In this document: positions 51,321-63,664 of the stretch, piece by piece | How the letters are laid out: each line of letters starts with the position of its first letter | How positions within the stretch are numbered: position 1 is the first letter of the stretch | NCBI GenBank assembly: GCA_025765615.1 | Contig: JAIVFJ010000102.1 | Span: 124,001-188,000 of the forward strand | Reading direction: 5' to 3' | DNA length: 64,000 bases | Source of the DNA: Zopfochytrium polystomum | Lineage: Eukaryota > Chytridiomycota > Chytridiomycetes > Chytridiales > Chytridiaceae | The notes under the pieces: generated by a model | Database searches by the model: none | What the model was told of the DNA's origin: nothing | Seen by the model: the letters and a program-made list of their open reading frames with translations, nothing else | Translations under genes and position numbers: made by a program

Positions 51321-53041
51321 ATGCAGCCAAAAATTCCAAGGTGGCGTAGGTTGGGTTTTTGGCCTTGGTAATATTCAAATGGAATTCAACCAGTGCGAGT
51401 GTGTTGCACACGATTGCGCAGGAATGAAGCATGGCATAGTGCGTAGGACCAGAAGAACCATGGAAGCTGAGCTTCAATCAGGAGACAGGAAGCAATGTGG
51501 GTGATGACCTTGATGGCATTTTCTGCAACACCAATCACCCTCCTTGACGTAAGGGACAGAAGGCTGAAAGACAATGGGAGGTTGGTGGGTGATACAGTAG
51601 GCCTCAAATTGCTGACTGTTAAGACCAAGGTTGTCTGCCTGTACAAATAGTGTTCGACAAGTGGGGAAGAGTTGCTCTTCAAAATCAATGCGATCAATTA
51701 TCCGTTGAGTGACGCCTGCGGTGTGAGTGACAGTGTAGCCTGTGGCGTAGTTGACAATAACTTCAAAGTAGTTGGAACTGTCCAGAGAACGTGTACTGAT
51801 CTTTCCAGTTTTGTCAGTGCATTGCATCTGCAGCAGGGCAAAATCAAAACGAGGTTTGGCCATGAGCTGTTGCTGGCGCATCTTTGCCATATCACAAATG
51901 AGGCAAGGCTTGTGTGTTGTTGGTGGTGGAGGAGGAGCACTGTCGACATCACCAGACTTGAGAGTGTTGCGTACTTGCTCTTGGTGGATGTGGCCAAAAC
52001 ATCGGTGCCATAGGTCGCATGCAGTTGCTGGTGATGTGTAGGCAATGGGCTCAACTGAAATTTTCCTTTGCGCAGCTGGGTGCTGGACTGGGATGAGATA
52101 GTAAAGGCCGTCATGTTGTTCGCTAATCTTGATGCTGTGTTGAGATGTGAGTGTAGCAAGAAGAAAGACTGAATCTTGAGTGAATAGCATCCCAGCAGTT
52201 TAATCTTGGAGGACATGTGACACAGAGAGGAGTGGTTCCTTGAGTGATGGGACATTAAGCAGATTGCAGAGCACCACATCAAAACTAGGAAAAGTGAGAA
52301 TGACAGATCCAATTCCTTTGGTGCGGCATTCATGGTCATCTGCTAGGCCGGCATGGTGTTTTGTTTCAAATTGTTGCTACTTGACAGTTGCTTCGACAGC
52401 CACAACTGGTCCTGCATTAGCTTGCTCAGCGACAGTCAGTACATAGAGATAGTTTGGTGAGAGTGTTTCACCAGCCTTCAGCTCTGGTGTGCTGTGCCCA
52501 CCATTTCGACAGTGCAACCAGAAATACCATCCATCCCACTAACCTTGGGTAGGTGTGTGACGTACATATGGTAGGCCTCCTTGTTGCAGAAAGGTCTCTC
52601 AAGAGGGAATAGGTCCGTCCACATTAGGTCCTGAATTCCCTTTTCACCAATAACCTTGATCTGAAGGTTGCTAATAAAGTCTTTGAATTCTGTCAGCGTC
52701 TTGCCAGTGAACATGCCAACAAACGAGTTTAGGTTGGACAACATTGCGTTGCACATGGTGATGATTCTGTTGCGTGACTCTAGGAGTTGATTGATGCTGT
52801 ACTTGATGGAGAAATGGTCCAGGATAGAAGATGTGTGTTGCACACAATGCTTGTTGCAAGCTGATTGATGGACGGAAAATTCTGAAATCGGTATAACAGG
52901 TTGGCACTGTTGAATAGCAACTGTGCGCCGAATTTCAGGCCAAGGATCACAGTTTTGGTGGTGTTTTCCTATGGAGAGTGTAGTAGAGCAGAATAGAGAG
53001 AACTTAGAGCAATTTGGTGTCCAGCTGGGGTGACTTGTCAC
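51321..53041 (-). mobile_element. Truncated Ty1/copia retrotransposon (gag, protease, integrase part)
   Basis: On the minus strand in gag-pol order. A gag-like piece spans 53041-52478 (MFTGKTLTEFKDFISNLQIK). A protease-side segment at about 52330-52200 contains LCNLLNVPSLKEPLLSVSH, the hallmark preceding GAG-pre-integrase. The zinc-binding LWHRCFGHIHQEQVRNTLK with CLICDMAK (about 52030-51880) is the HHCC domain. The integrase core follows (PRFDFALLQMQ, HQPPIVFQPS) and continues to LPWFFWSYALCHASFLRNRV, then GQKPNLRHLGIFGC at about 51325-51360. Several stops and frame changes show decay. Reverse transcriptase and RNase H, which should follow, are absent: the element stops at the CBS/PB1 pseudogene. 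Confidence 0.85.
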
Positions 53042-54466: not shown

Positions 54467-57400
54467 ATGTTGATGCACGGCGGCGACCGCGACAGCAACG
54501 GCGACGGGGACCGCGACGGCGACGCCGTCACACCACCGCTGGCACCATCGTTGGCATCAAAGACCGCGACAAGTACGTCAGCGACAGCGACCGCGGCCTC
54601 GGCGGCCGCCGCCGCCACCACCACCACCACCTACTTTAGCGAGCGACAGGGCCTGTAAGTGAGTGGTTCGTGGTGGACGTTGGCGGTTGGGGGTGGTGGG
54701 GTTGCCGCAAATGCATACAAAGGACGGACCCCACCCGTTACCGCACCTTGTCGGGGCAATCGCACCATCCCCTTCCCCTCGGCCGGCAGGCACGCAAACA
54801 GACAGAGGGCAGGCACTCGTGAAACCGAGGCAGCACTCATTCCTTGCTGCCGAGTCTGCAAGAGATCGCTGGCAAATGCGCGCGCGCGCACGCACACACA
54901 CACACACACACACACATACACACGCACTTAACACGGGCTGTCCTATTTCCCTCGTTTTTTTTTTTGGTGATGCTCCCTGCTGTCCCCTCAGTTGCGAGTA
55001 CTGCCCACACTTCAAGGTGCTGCTGCTTCACCTTCCTTTTGTGTTTCTCCGTTACCCGCCCTCTCACCCTCTCTCGCGGTCCTAATTTGGGCCACCAGAG
55101 CTACCAGTCGGGTGTGTACACGCAGGATGGCGTGTGCAAGGGATTCATGATTGATAGGTTCGCTTATCCAGGCGACGGCATGAGGTGGGACACCTCTACC
55201 CTCAAGCTCTTTTTTTTTCTCTCTCTCTTAGTAGCATGCACTAAGCGGGTAACCTCCTGGCCGCCCCGGCCCCCTCCCCCCCCCCCTCTCCCGCCCTCGC
55301 AGTGCCGACGGTAAGATTGGATGCATTTTGTTCCTACCATCCGATAGAGCTCCCCACTGCTACTAGTATGCTTCTGTCTCATCTCTCTGTCTCTCCCTGG
55401 CTCTCTATCTCTCTCTCGCACTGTCTCTTTCTCTCTCTCTGTCTCTCACATTTGCTCTCGCTCTGGTGAAGGCAGTTACTTCGTGAGCCACGGTGGAGGA
55501 AAGGCTGGGGTGGGCGAGAGCGGCGAGTGGTCGCTGAAGAAGTCGCAGACCTGCAAGGACAAGGGCATTAGGGGTCTCATTGAGTCGTACAGGCTGGGGC
55601 GACCGGTGCTCGTCATTCAGGTGTTGCACACTTTGCATTCTGTTTTGCTGCAAGACACGCGACGCAAAACCACTTCTTTTTTTTTGGCTTCTTTACCAAG
55701 TAGATCTACTCATGTTCCGTTTCCTTCCCCCACATTGCAAGGGTCGAGAGTACCCATTTGCACCCGCAAAGGTATTCGACAGTGGCGCACCAGCGAATCC
55801 GCGGTACTGGATTCTGGGAACCTTTGTAGTTCGCTTTTATTGGCCGACGTTGGCATTCAGCCCCGACACTCACGATTGGCATGTTCGGTTTAATTTTCTG
55901 TTCCAGGTAGGGTTAGGGGGGCAAGCGCGCATGGACGCACATGAGTTACCCCTTTTTCTACCAAATCAAAACAATAAATGCAGCGTGATGGCATTTTCAA
56001 GTCATGCTTACCTGAACAAACGACAAATCTGCTCTTTCGATGCCCGTGCTGCCAGAGGCCGTCTCCGCAGCCGTACGTAAACGTAAATCTGTGTTTGCAT
56101 ATACAGTGTCCCTTGTTTTTTCGAAGACCCGACGGTCAAGTGTTCGACGTCCGCAACGCCGGCGGTTCTTTGGAACAAATCTATCGGCTCGACTTTTTGA
56201 CTCAGCGGAGCATCGCAATTGCTTTGCAGGAGGCCACCGAGTGCGACGACGATGAGTGCGATGCGTGCCACTCGGTTCCGTTCCCGCTCGATTCTGGCAC
56301 CCCCGCTTGCAGTCCAAACGTCCGCTCAGAGGACAAGCCGAGCGAATTCTTGCAGACATCTGCAGCGCGCTGCCCCGATTGCTGCTTTGTCACTGTCCGA
56401 AGACGTTTGGGGGGATGGCAATGTGCAAACAAATGCAAGGCGAGATTCTTAGTGGCTTCATTCTCCTCACTCGCCCCGAATACTTGAAAGAGAAACGACT
56501 TACATTGGACCGTCGCGTGGGGGTCGCGGGGGACTCTTATTTCCACAACTATAGGGAACAGTCAATTACTGCAGGCAGCTGGCTTGGGACGATGTTAGGG
56601 CACGTGCCGAGTCTCTGCGACCTTTGCAAAGCTCTGCTGCGAAAGGATTCCTGCGAATCTGCGTGCGGCGAGTTGGAGACCAGCTCTACTACGAGCGTCA
56701 GTCTCAGGAACTGCCAAGCTGGCTGTACGCCACACTGACTGGCCAATTGCGGTACGCACTAAACTGCAATGCGTTTTGGTGTGCTGCTGTGTGTGTGCGT
56801 TGGCGTGCGTGGGCGTGTGTGCGTATCAGCATTTAGATAGCCTTTGTGTGCGTTGGCGTGCGTGCGCGTGTGTGCGTATCAGCATTTAGATAGCCTTTAA
56901 CAAGACTGCCCAGGGCCGCGCCTCTAGACTTTGACACAAACACGACACCAGAAGGTTGTGTGGATGCTTGGCTCTGTGTCATGCCGTCAGGCGGTGGAAT
57001 AGTGTTTCATTTTCGAAACCCAAACGCCCTCGGTGTGGGTCACACAGACCAACCACCAAAATCCCCACCGGACGCACTTCTAAGGACTTTGTTCTTTGAA
57101 GAGGCCCTGCCACTCGCAAGGCAACGTTTGCGACATCACAAAGGTCCGTGCAGATTTATGGTATCCCCAACTCTGGACTTCGTTTGGAATTAGTGAAGCC
57201 GCAGTGTTCTTACTTTTCAAACATCTCGCCTTCCCTGCTTCTTTACAATGCAACTGTGTGCAAATTGGACGTTCCCGTGGCCGTCGATTGTTTTTTGGTT
57301 ATTTTCCCCCACACAATCGACAATTTGCTGAACATCCAACGAATTTCATCCGGTAGTCGACAAGTTTTTAAGCAAGCAGTTTTCATGCAATTTTGGTGCG

Positions 57401-60275
57401 GATTACCAGCACGCAAGTGACATGAAGGGCATACCATTTAAAGACGGTCCACCAGTTGCTCAAGATTTTTGCATGATGCTGAACAGAGCAGTCCCTTCGG
57501 CTAGATTTAACGAGCTACTTCTCTTGGCTTACATCGATGGTAGCTGCAATTCTGTCCTACCTTGCTCTTCGCTGACTAATTGCGTTGTGCATGCAACCTC
57601 CAAAATCTTAGGAAATAAAATGAACTACCACGCAGACGGTAAATTGTAGCTACCTTTAATTGATAGAAACCACTAACCCTCTGACTTCATTCTTGTTTCA
57701 TCTGCAATCACGCGCGAATGCGGGCCTCTAGACGAAGAGGGCCTGACAGGACCCGTCGCCACTTGGTCCTTTGGCTTTCCCGCAACTATGAGCTTCCGCG
57801 TTTCGAAACGTCCACGCCCCGACGCTCCTCCATATCACGGTCAAGACCCTACCCGCCAGGTCACCCGCGATGTGTTCCTCCGCCTCTCTGCATTAATGAC
57901 AGGTGAGGACTTTGATACGCCGCCACAGACGCCGCCGCAGCCGCCGCAGCCAGCACCGCCTTTGTCAACTGAACCGCACCGGTTCGCAAGCGGTGTCAGC
58001 GGCATGCCAAGCGACGGTCGTACCGCACAGTCAGACCTCGAGCTCGAGGCCGCCCTCACGATGCTGTGCCTGCGCCGCGACAACAAGCGCAGCAGCAGCC
58101 AAATACCGCAGACTCGTCGGACGCGGCCACTGTTGCAGGAGATTGTCCCTGCCGGTCCTGCCGACAACTCGCCGGCTCAGAGCGAGATGACGGAAGCGGC
58201 CGAAGTCGTGGAGCGCCGCCACGCAGTCATTTTCAAACTGGCACTCGCGCATGGGGACCTTATAGTGATGGTACTTTCTGCACGCGCATTTTCGCCTGCA
58301 ATGAATTCCTGATTGCTGTCAAGAGAAAGTCTTTAACACCCATCCCTACTCCCTTGTCCGTTGCTGTACCTAGGATGGCGAGAGCATTCAGCACTTCTAC
58401 GAGCACTCCATCGACTTTAAGAAAGGTGTCCGTTTCGTGGTGACGGCACGCCGCATCGGCTCCGATGCGGCCCCAGACTTTTTAGACCAGAGCCGCGCTG
58501 CGGCAGCGCCGACAGCGGCCAGAATGGTGGACCCCGGGGACGCATTTGTCGATTCTGCCTGCGGCAGCGACTGCGACCCGCTTCCACACGACGAAACCTC
58601 ACAGTCTCTCCCCACCACCGAAGACGTCCCCATGTGTGAAGACAGCGCCACAGAGCCAGCCGTTGGAGGCGACGAGAACGACTTGGAGCCACAGAGCTCC
58701 ACACCACCGCCGTGCGAAGAAGGTGCCCCCACTGGAGTGGACGTTCCCACGAAGACCGGCGTCTTCGAAGGCGCTGTGGTGGACGTCGGGCAGCGTGCCA
58801 CAAGTCCGACGCCAGACAAAGGACGCGTTTACTCCATACACCCTTTTTCAGACGTGCCCACCTTTTTAGACGCTAACGACCCTGCTGTCACGCGGGGAGA
58901 CAACAGAGCTCCGAATCCGGCGGATTTGGAGGATGCTGCGCAAAAGCAGAAAAATCCGAAGAGCCGGGCGCGACCAAAGACTCGTGGCGACGCCGCTGTT
59001 GTAGCCTTCGGGCGAAGCGCCAGACCCCCGCGGATGGCCACGCAAGAGCCGATACGGCAGACAACGGCCGTCGTCGCGACCCCTTTGACCAGCGCTCCCG
59101 CTGCGAAGAAGTCGGCGCGAAACAAGCCAGAGGGCGGTGCGCGGCGCCCACGAGGCGGCCCCGCAAGACAGCCGCCGCAACCTGCAAACCTCGCGACAAG
59201 CCTTATCGCCGAAGCCACCACGGACACCTCAACAGCGGCACGGCAAGTGGTGGTCAGTTCGGACGAAGGCCGCACCGGCACTGCCGATCCACAGTCGCAA
59301 CAAGCGGCGCTTCCACCACCGACGCGGACGCCGTCGGTGTTATCGCCGCCACCAACTCCACAGCCACAGCCTTCGAGCAAAATGCTCAAGCGCCTGCGCG
59401 ACGGCGAGCTCACCGCTCACCTCCAGGCGGTCGAGGAGAAGCGGTCGAGAACTGGCGAGTCGCGGGACGCAGTTCCAAAAGTCCCGCCGGCCGCCCGGAC
59501 GACGTGGAGGCGGGCAACCGGGCCAGGAGAGGCGGCGGTGCGGGAGAAGAAGCGGGACGGGCGCAGGGCGAAGCGCTTTAAAAGAAACGCGGAGGACGGT
59601 GTCTGGACGGACGCAAGCAAAGACGACGACTATGACGACGACAGCGACAACAGCAACAGCAGCGACAGCGACAACAGCAGCGAGGACGGCAGCACTCTCC
59701 ACACTGCCGCATCCGTGGCTCACCCATCACCGCCGCCGACGCCAGCCGTAACTCCTCGCCCGCAGATCGCCGCGCCGGACCGCCAGACGTCACCGCCGCC
59801 GTTGCCACCCTTACCGCCATCACCACCACCGGCGTCCCCACGTTTGCAGCACGACGAGCCAGACAGCCCCGCCTCCTCACCTCCGCCGTCGCCGCAGACG
59901 CCAGCCGGAGCGGTCCTTTGCTCGCAACACGTCGAACCGGACACGCAGGCCTTCACAACGCCGCCGTCGCGGCTGGCACCAGCCACGTCCCCGCCGTCGC
60001 CCCCATCGCCGTCCCCGCGCGACCGGATCGTCCCACCGCCGCCGCCCTCCGACCTTACGCCGGACTCGGCGCCGTCGCGCGGTGCGTCTCGGCGCAAGAC
60101 GGTGCTGCTGCCAAGAGTCCCGTTGTCTCTTTGCCGGCGCAGCGAGCGGATCGCGGCGATTTCGGCGAAGCGCGCGCTTTTTGCGCCGTACTGCGAGCGG
60201 GAGGACGAGGACTTTGCGCTGAGCGCGGCGCTGCTCAAGGAGGTGGGGCAGCTGCGCCGCGGGCAAGACGGATGA
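54467..60275 (+). CDS. SRA-like domain + Cys-rich zinc ribbon + AlkB-like 2OG-Fe(II) dioxygenase
   Basis: Fifteen exons keep phase from ATG to stop (1387 aa): 54467..54654, 54992..55016, 55099..55157, 55303..55310, 55472..55620, 55742..55906, 55984..56072, 56127..56451, 56555..56751, 56905..57143, 57194..57282, 57377..57539, 57612..57638, 57732..58270, 58374..60275. Residues about 63-198 look SRA/YDG-like: SYQSGVYTQDGVCKG, SYFVSHGGG, LIESYRLGRPVLVIQGRE, YWILGTFVV, WHVRFNFLF. Residues 200-340 are Cys-rich (RCPCCQRP, ECDACH, RCPDCC, WQCANKCK), like zinc ribbons. The AlkB-type domain has CNFGADYQHAS, RFNELLLLAYIDG, the iron ligands in NYHADDEEG (H572, D574), GPVATWSFGFPATMSFRV, then, after a disordered insert, HGDLIVM and FYEHSID (H765) with R774 for 2-oxoglutarate. 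The last 600 residues are acidic, Pro/Ser-rich and disordered. Likely role: recognising and oxidatively removing a DNA or RNA modification (inference). Confidence 0.8.
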
Positions 60276-62590: not shown

Positions 62591-62740
62591 AGGGGGATGG
62601 GGGACCTGTCCCATCCCTCAAGTGAATTATTGTTTCCAATACAATCATCACTCCTCTCAGTTCCTTGTCTGCCTTGTCCTGTCCTGCCCTGTTCCTGACA
62701 TCATAATTCACTTCACCCTCTCCCACTACTCTCTGCCATC

Positions 62741-63664
62741 ATGTCTGACCCAAACAACACCTTCCCTGATGCAACTGCCTTCCAAGCCTTGATGGACCAA
62801 TTACAAGCCCTCTCAAGACAGACACACCAACTTCAAGAACAAGTCCTTCACCAGCAGCACCAGCTTCAACAACAACTTCACCAACAAGAACATCAAGCTC
62901 TTCCCCTGCCTCAAGCCAACCAAGCAAGAGAGCCCAAGGTTCCCAGCCCTGACAAGTTCACTGGGCTGGCCAAAGACCTTAGGAACTTCATGGCCACTGT
63001 GGAGAATGTCATCCTTCTCCAACCTTCAAGATTTCCCAGTGAGCAAGTCAAGGTTCTTTTCACAAGCACCCTCCTGTCTGGTCAAGCTCAATCATGGTAC
63101 AGATCTCTCCCAAGCACACCCACCACCCTGCAAGAGCTCTGGGAGGGGCTGGAAGCTACCTTTGGTGACCCCTACGCATCTTGGACAGCAAGATCCAAGC
63201 TCAAGCATATCAAGCAAGGAAAGCAATCTTGTGTGGCCTACACCAACCAATTCAAGCAACTAGCCAGAGACTCTGGATACAATGATGCAGCTCTGATGGA
63301 GCTGTACCATGATGGTCTCCATGAGTCTATCCAAGACATGCTCTCCCAGTCTCTGCACATCCCTGAGACCTTGGAAGAGTACATTCTCCTTGCCATCAAG
63401 ATTGACAACAGACTCTACTCCAAGAGGCTGAAGCAAAGACAAGTAGGAACTACATCAAGACCTACCCCAGTTCCTCAAGCTCTCACAGTTCCTGAACCCA
63501 TGCAAGTGGATGCAGTTGAGACACTTCCTAAGGGTCCTCTGAGCCAAGAGGAGAAAACAAGGAGGGCCCAGCAGGGACTGTGTTTCTACTGTGGCTCCAA
63601 GGAGCATGCTGTCAAGGACTGCCCAAGGAAGAAGCACCCAAACTCCCAGGTCCAGGCTCACTGA
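62741..63664 (+). CDS. Gag polyprotein of the Ty3-type element
   Basis: 307 aa, intact. The N-terminus is Gln/His-rich and likely coiled coil. The capsid domain follows: PDKFTGLAKDLRNFMATVEN, LSGQAQSWYRSL, LWEGLEATFGDP and YTNQFKQLARDSGY, the retrotransposon Gag pattern of Ty3-like elements. One CCHC zinc knuckle, CFYCGSKEHAVKDC (about residues 280-293), binds RNA for packaging. The ATG at 62741 lies 41 bp after the LTR end. Confidence 0.95.
   Translation: MSDPNNTFPDATAFQALMDQLQALSRQTHQLQEQVLHQQHQLQQQLHQQEHQALPLPQANQAREPKVPSPDKFTGLAKDLRNFMATVENVILLQPSRFPSEQVKVLFTSTLLSGQAQSWYRSLPSTPTTLQELWEGLEATFGDPYASWTARSKLKHIKQGKQSCVAYTNQFKQLARDSGYNDAALMELYHDGLHESIQDMLSQSLHIPETLEEYILLAIKIDNRLYSKRLKQRQVGTTSRPTPVPQALTVPEPMQVDAVETLPKGPLSQEEKTRRAQQGLCFYCGSKEHAVKDCPRKKHPNSQVQAH

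Follow-up and report, generated by a model that had tools for sequence, protein, structure and literature searches.

A putative gene joining an SRA-type domain to an AlkB oxygenase in the chytrid Zopfochytrium polystomum and its counterparts in other fungi

Exon structure of the locus

The window analyzed here, a 64,000-nucleotide stretch of the Zopfochytrium polystomum genome (contig JAIVFJ010000102.1, positions 124,001 to 188,000), carries on its forward strand what is most likely a single gene for a protein with an SRA-type domain, two cysteine-rich modules, and an AlkB-type oxygenase domain. Our model runs from the ATG at 54467 to the stop ending at 60275 and encodes 1388 amino acids in one continuous frame with a single terminal stop. 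The initial annotation, made from the letters of this DNA, had the same two ends and fifteen exons in one frame; one frame indeed splices through, with 13 exons sufficing, and the number 15 was not reproduced. The public annotation places two models here, DFJ73DRAFT_849959 (P0002) and DFJ73DRAFT_892518 (P0001), which are halves of the window gene. The larger share of the N-terminal domain, together with the cysteine-rich part, lies in P0002 (287 amino acids), while P0001 (861 amino acids) covers the AlkB domain and a proline-rich tail. The features are as follows, with homolog counts referring to the set described below.

54467..54654, plus strand: exon 1, opening with low-complexity sequence that gives way to the first SRA residues (..YFSERQGL); homologs have WAxSRQEVCE at the same place
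54632..55986 (introns counted in the span), plus strand: SRA domain, residues 56-208, assigned by profile similarity and predicted fold
54992..55016, plus strand: exon 2 (CEYCPHFK), with C64 kept in 23 of 24 homologs and one gap
55099..55184, plus strand: exon 3, with the invariant Asp97 (55174-55176) at the position of the SRA pocket Asp
55303..55310, plus strand: exon 4, a microexon of 8 nucleotides that keeps the frame and is also used by P0002
55472..55620, plus strand: exon 5, encoding SHGGGK..RPVLVIQ in the SRA domain
55742..55906, plus strand: exon 6, ..YWILGTFVVRFYW.., end of the SRA domain
55984..56451, plus strand: exon 7, both cysteine quartets; acceptor as in P0002, donor at 56452 joining exon 8
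56041..56109, plus strand: zinc-ribbon-like quartet 1 (C227, C230, C244, C249), Cys in 22, 22, 21, and 22 of 24 homologs
56371..56436, plus strand: zinc-ribbon-like quartet 2 (C337, C340, C354, C358), Cys in 22, 22, 20, and 21 of 24 homologs
56555..56751, plus strand: exon 8, linker without homology support
56914..57143, plus strand: exon 9, linker, with homology from residue 481 (57068) onward
57357..57539, plus strand: exon 10, start of the AlkB domain (FLSKQFSCNFG..FNELLLLAYIDG)
57612..57638, plus strand: exon 11 (GNKMNYHAD), metal ligands H573 (57629-57631) and D575 (57635-57637)
57732..58270, plus strand: exon 12, AlkB core interrupted by a Pro/Gln-rich insert
58374..60275, plus strand: exon 13, H766 (58404-58406), R775 (58431-58433), and R781 (58449-58451), followed by an extended tail rich in Pro and Ser that reaches the stop

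All 12 introns are of the GT-AG type, and several donors lie far from GTAAGT. Exons 1-6 and the start of exon 7 had been assembled into one frame prior to the identification of any homolog, and exons 11-13 agree with P0001. The splice sites of exons 7-10 were picked with P0002 or homologs in view, so that their open frame is no independent test. Thus, the exon 7 acceptor was taken from P0002 because it supplies the first cysteine quartet, and of two usable acceptors of exon 9, at 56905 and 56914, the latter was used. The open frame 56256-56738 was dropped as an exon; the intron 56452-56554 joins the conserved frames instead. By eye, about 53 bases within intron 8 (56790-56900) appear to be duplicated in tandem almost without change.

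Gene continuity and homologs

The first two protein searches with stitched queries returned one protein each, a public half of the window gene. A typed AlkB-core probe retrieved 25 proteins, of which one is P0001 and the other 24 form the homolog set. Judging by their names, we take 17 of these to be Basidiomycota (two being Amanita muscaria records) and two to be Ascomycota. A profile of the N-terminal domain matches all 24 with an expectation value (E) of 2.5e-28 or better; 14 of them were used in building this profile, which leaves 10 independent matches. Homolog P0022 starts inside the N-terminal domain, and the P0016 model is devoid of the ribbons. Besides the window product, 24 proteins carry an SRA-type and an AlkB domain on a single chain, a combination conserved across fungi. 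The pairing, for which the initial annotation knew of no fungal example, is therefore not unique.

The continuity of the gene is supported by a whole-length profile of the 24 homologs, from whose alignment and construction the window sequence was left out. Against the spliced product, it yields three colinear blocks (residues 59-208, 219-364, and 481-796; E 7.6e-77), whereas the best of 500 shuffled copies reaches E 5.7. The second zinc-ribbon-like quartet is matched within block 219-364. These blocks place the SRA-type and AlkB parts in one predicted protein, as the initial annotation had proposed. Because they are colinear and the third begins about 350 bases upstream of the P0001 start codon at 57423, the split in the public annotation is most likely an error. 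On the other side of the break, block 219-364 extends as far as the donor at 56452, beyond which P0002 reads on to a stop. That two neighboring genes lie here, as the public models have it, might draw further support from residues 365-480 (exon 8 and part of exon 9), for which the 24-homolog profile gives no homology support and a segment profile (residues 364-505) finds nothing in the window product. A segment profile of zinc ribbon 2 alone, in two cuts, likewise had no match there. Two genes would leave unexplained why both halves share one chain in 24 homologs and why the homology crosses the ends of both models; we therefore reject this arrangement on homology and regard it as highly improbable.

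A PF13532 search of the genome places AlkB matches at no fewer than seven other loci; this list is incomplete, because the AlkB domain of the window itself is missing from it. Comparing upstream pieces of the window gene with the stretches around these seven loci gave no match better than E 0.004. That match, of one middle piece against L017 with the low-complexity filter off, was taken as chance. At L013:258-1596 (G000:C190), an AlkB open reading frame (PF13532, 3.8e-23) adjoins a TnpB/Cas12f-type zinc-ribbon open reading frame (PF07282, 8.1e-9), and L019 holds an apparent second copy, judged by eye from a shared peptide.

The SRA-type and AlkB domains

The SRA-like character of the N-terminal domain, which the initial annotation had put forward, is upheld by profile similarity and by the predicted fold. 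Its profile matches SUVH5 at 7.2e-8 among SRA domains, hhalign gives 96.7% against SRA (96.3% without the window row), and the fold predicted for this segment is of the SRA type. Many of the SRA structures matched by the predicted fold are DNA complexes, according to their titles. The curated cut-off of the Pfam SRA profile PF02182, 30.7 bits, is reached by no single sequence, with four of eight sequences matching and the best at 18.9 bits. At E ≤ 10, 8 of 15 domain slices match (best E 4.6e-6) together with 3 of 26 full proteins, and the window sequence itself does not match. Of 24 pattern matches to the N-terminal domain in IMG/VR, none was confirmed.

In the putative base pocket, D97 aligns with the Asp of the SUVH5 YND motif and is Asp in 24/24 homologs. 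Equally invariant are the two Gly of the loop after D97 and the Trp following the YDG position. In contrast to the pair of cage tyrosines plus YDG that marks PF02182, the first cage position holds Tyr94 in the window protein and S, A, or H in the homologs (10, 9, and 5 of 24). The second is Ser108 and S, A, T, or C (20, 2, 1, and 1), and the YDG position reads ILG, with Leu in 24/24 and Gly in 18/24. We presume the names and roles of these residues, including that of the Asp for the flipped base, to be as in known SRA pockets, which we aligned from sequence and not from coordinates. As far as this alignment indicates, the domain retains part of the base pocket without the classic cage for 5-methylcytosine (5mC), and the invariant Asp and Gly-Gly suggest that a base pocket as such is kept. 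The reading of modified cytosines, as formulated in the initial annotation, is unsupported because the family has lost one cage Tyr and the YDG. The cysteine-rich module resolves into two conserved zinc-ribbon-like quartets, which may hold metal.

For the C-terminal part, a complete AlkB-type oxygenase core had been proposed, and PF13532 bears this out: a provisional stitched piece of the window exons scores 40.3 bits against the curated cut-off of 31.2. At E ≤ 10, the profile matches 25 of the 26 members of set A1, which includes the N-terminal fragment P0002. The iron ligands HxD...H and the RxxxxxR motif are intact (H573, D575, H766, R775, and R781; 24/24 and 22/22 in the homologs), and the first four correspond, with an offset of one, to the H572, D574, H765, and R774 of the initial annotation. 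The fold predicted for homolog P0014 is an AlkB jelly roll. ALKBH3/ALKBH2 are the best PDB matches both by the family profile and by this fold, whose match list was filled by AlkB entries. The Pro/Gln-rich insert inside the chytrid AlkB core (57732-58270) is longer than in the nine homologs compared, and in exon 13 (58374-60275) a further 590 residues or so follow the last homology block.

Proposed function and relation to known systems

We propose, at a probability of roughly 60%, that the locus is one gene for a fungal 2-oxoglutarate/Fe(II) oxygenase that brings along a divergent SRA domain of its own as well as two zinc-ribbon-like modules, docks on DNA, and oxidizes an alkylated base. The SRA domain and the ribbons would dock the enzyme, probably where a base is flipped or modified, while oxidative removal of an alkyl group from a base would fall to the AlkB domain. 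Candidate marks, to be read or to be removed, are 5mC, N6-methyladenine (6mA), and 3mC/1mA. The combined reader and eraser envisaged in the initial annotation is retained as a hypothesis. In its fuller form, which we offer tentatively, chytrids, mushrooms, and ascomycetes would share a self-contained family in which the SRA domain flips and reads one DNA mark and passes that base or a neighbor to AlkB for oxidative removal. The mark may be other than 5mC, since the SRA cage is altered.

An equally tentative alternative is that the SRA domain no longer reads a modified base and serves as a DNA-binding or structural module of an alkylation-damage repair enzyme resembling ALKBH2/ALKBH3. These are the closest AlkB relatives, and the loss of a cage Tyr and of YDG fits this idea, while the Asp and Gly-Gly invariant in 24/24 homologs speak against it by suggesting a kept pocket. 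In a fungal AlkB phylogeny (PMC10826363), three Fusarium proteins, which need not belong to the present family, fall close to human ALKBH3 and Arabidopsis ALKBH2; they are ALKBH2 (933 amino acids), ALKBH3, and ALKBH4. Appreciably less probable is a demethylase acting on RNA, with the SRA-like domain as its RNA-binding part. RNA erasers do exist among AlkB enzymes; the fungal CpALKBH (350 amino acids) acts on N6-methyladenosine in RNA, according to PMC11708048, and likewise need not belong to this family. The many DNA complexes among the matched SRA structures argue instead for DNA.

Both 5mC and 6mA occur in fungi. Exon-level searches of the present genome gave 20 cytosine-5 methylase and 11 MT-A70 matches (matches, not genes), so that 5mC and 6mA chemistry are both possible there; three Tet_JBP matches all lie below the cut-off. 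Clusters of cytosine-5 methylase matches at G000:C421:20558-23274 and G000:C638:6146-7845, with stops inside in places, are perhaps tandem or decayed copies. The window gene itself is flanked by retrotransposon pieces:

51477-52199, minus strand: GAG-pre-integrase match, below cut-off
62699-63661, plus strand: Retrotrans_gag match, over cut-off, on the other side of the gene

Among the matches listed in a search of the open-access literature, no title announces an SRA-AlkB fusion. Neither profile libraries nor gene models reveal the fusion: the SRA part falls short of the Pfam cut-off, and the chytrid gene is annotated as two. Conserved in fungi, a protein that couples an SRA domain to an AlkB oxygenase offers a candidate for mark-guided erasure that can be tested directly.

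With ALKBH3/ALKBH2, the window protein shares the AlkB fold and the HxD...H...RxxxxxR signature; to our knowledge, these enzymes have no SRA or zinc-ribbon modules. Its SRA-type domain resembles those of SUVH4/5/6 and UHRF1/2 in predicted fold, profile similarity, and position of the pocket Asp. It differs in the loss of one cage Tyr and YDG and in its partner, which is an oxygenase, no SET or RING being found. A 2026 review (PMC13297926), in its accessible part, describes Dmt1 (an AlkB protein from Mucor, called a relative of NMAD-1) and CcTet (Coprinopsis) as oxygenases acting on DNA marks and as the first two characterized fungal DNA demethylases, with an SRA domain unmentioned for either. 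The modification-dependent restriction enzymes TagI, MspJI, LpnPI, and ScoMcrA likewise join an SRA-type domain to a catalytic domain, which is a nuclease in these enzymes and an oxygenase in the window protein. Both kinds of domain, and SRA joined to other catalytic domains, are thus known, while the oxygenase as partner is apparently new, at least to us.
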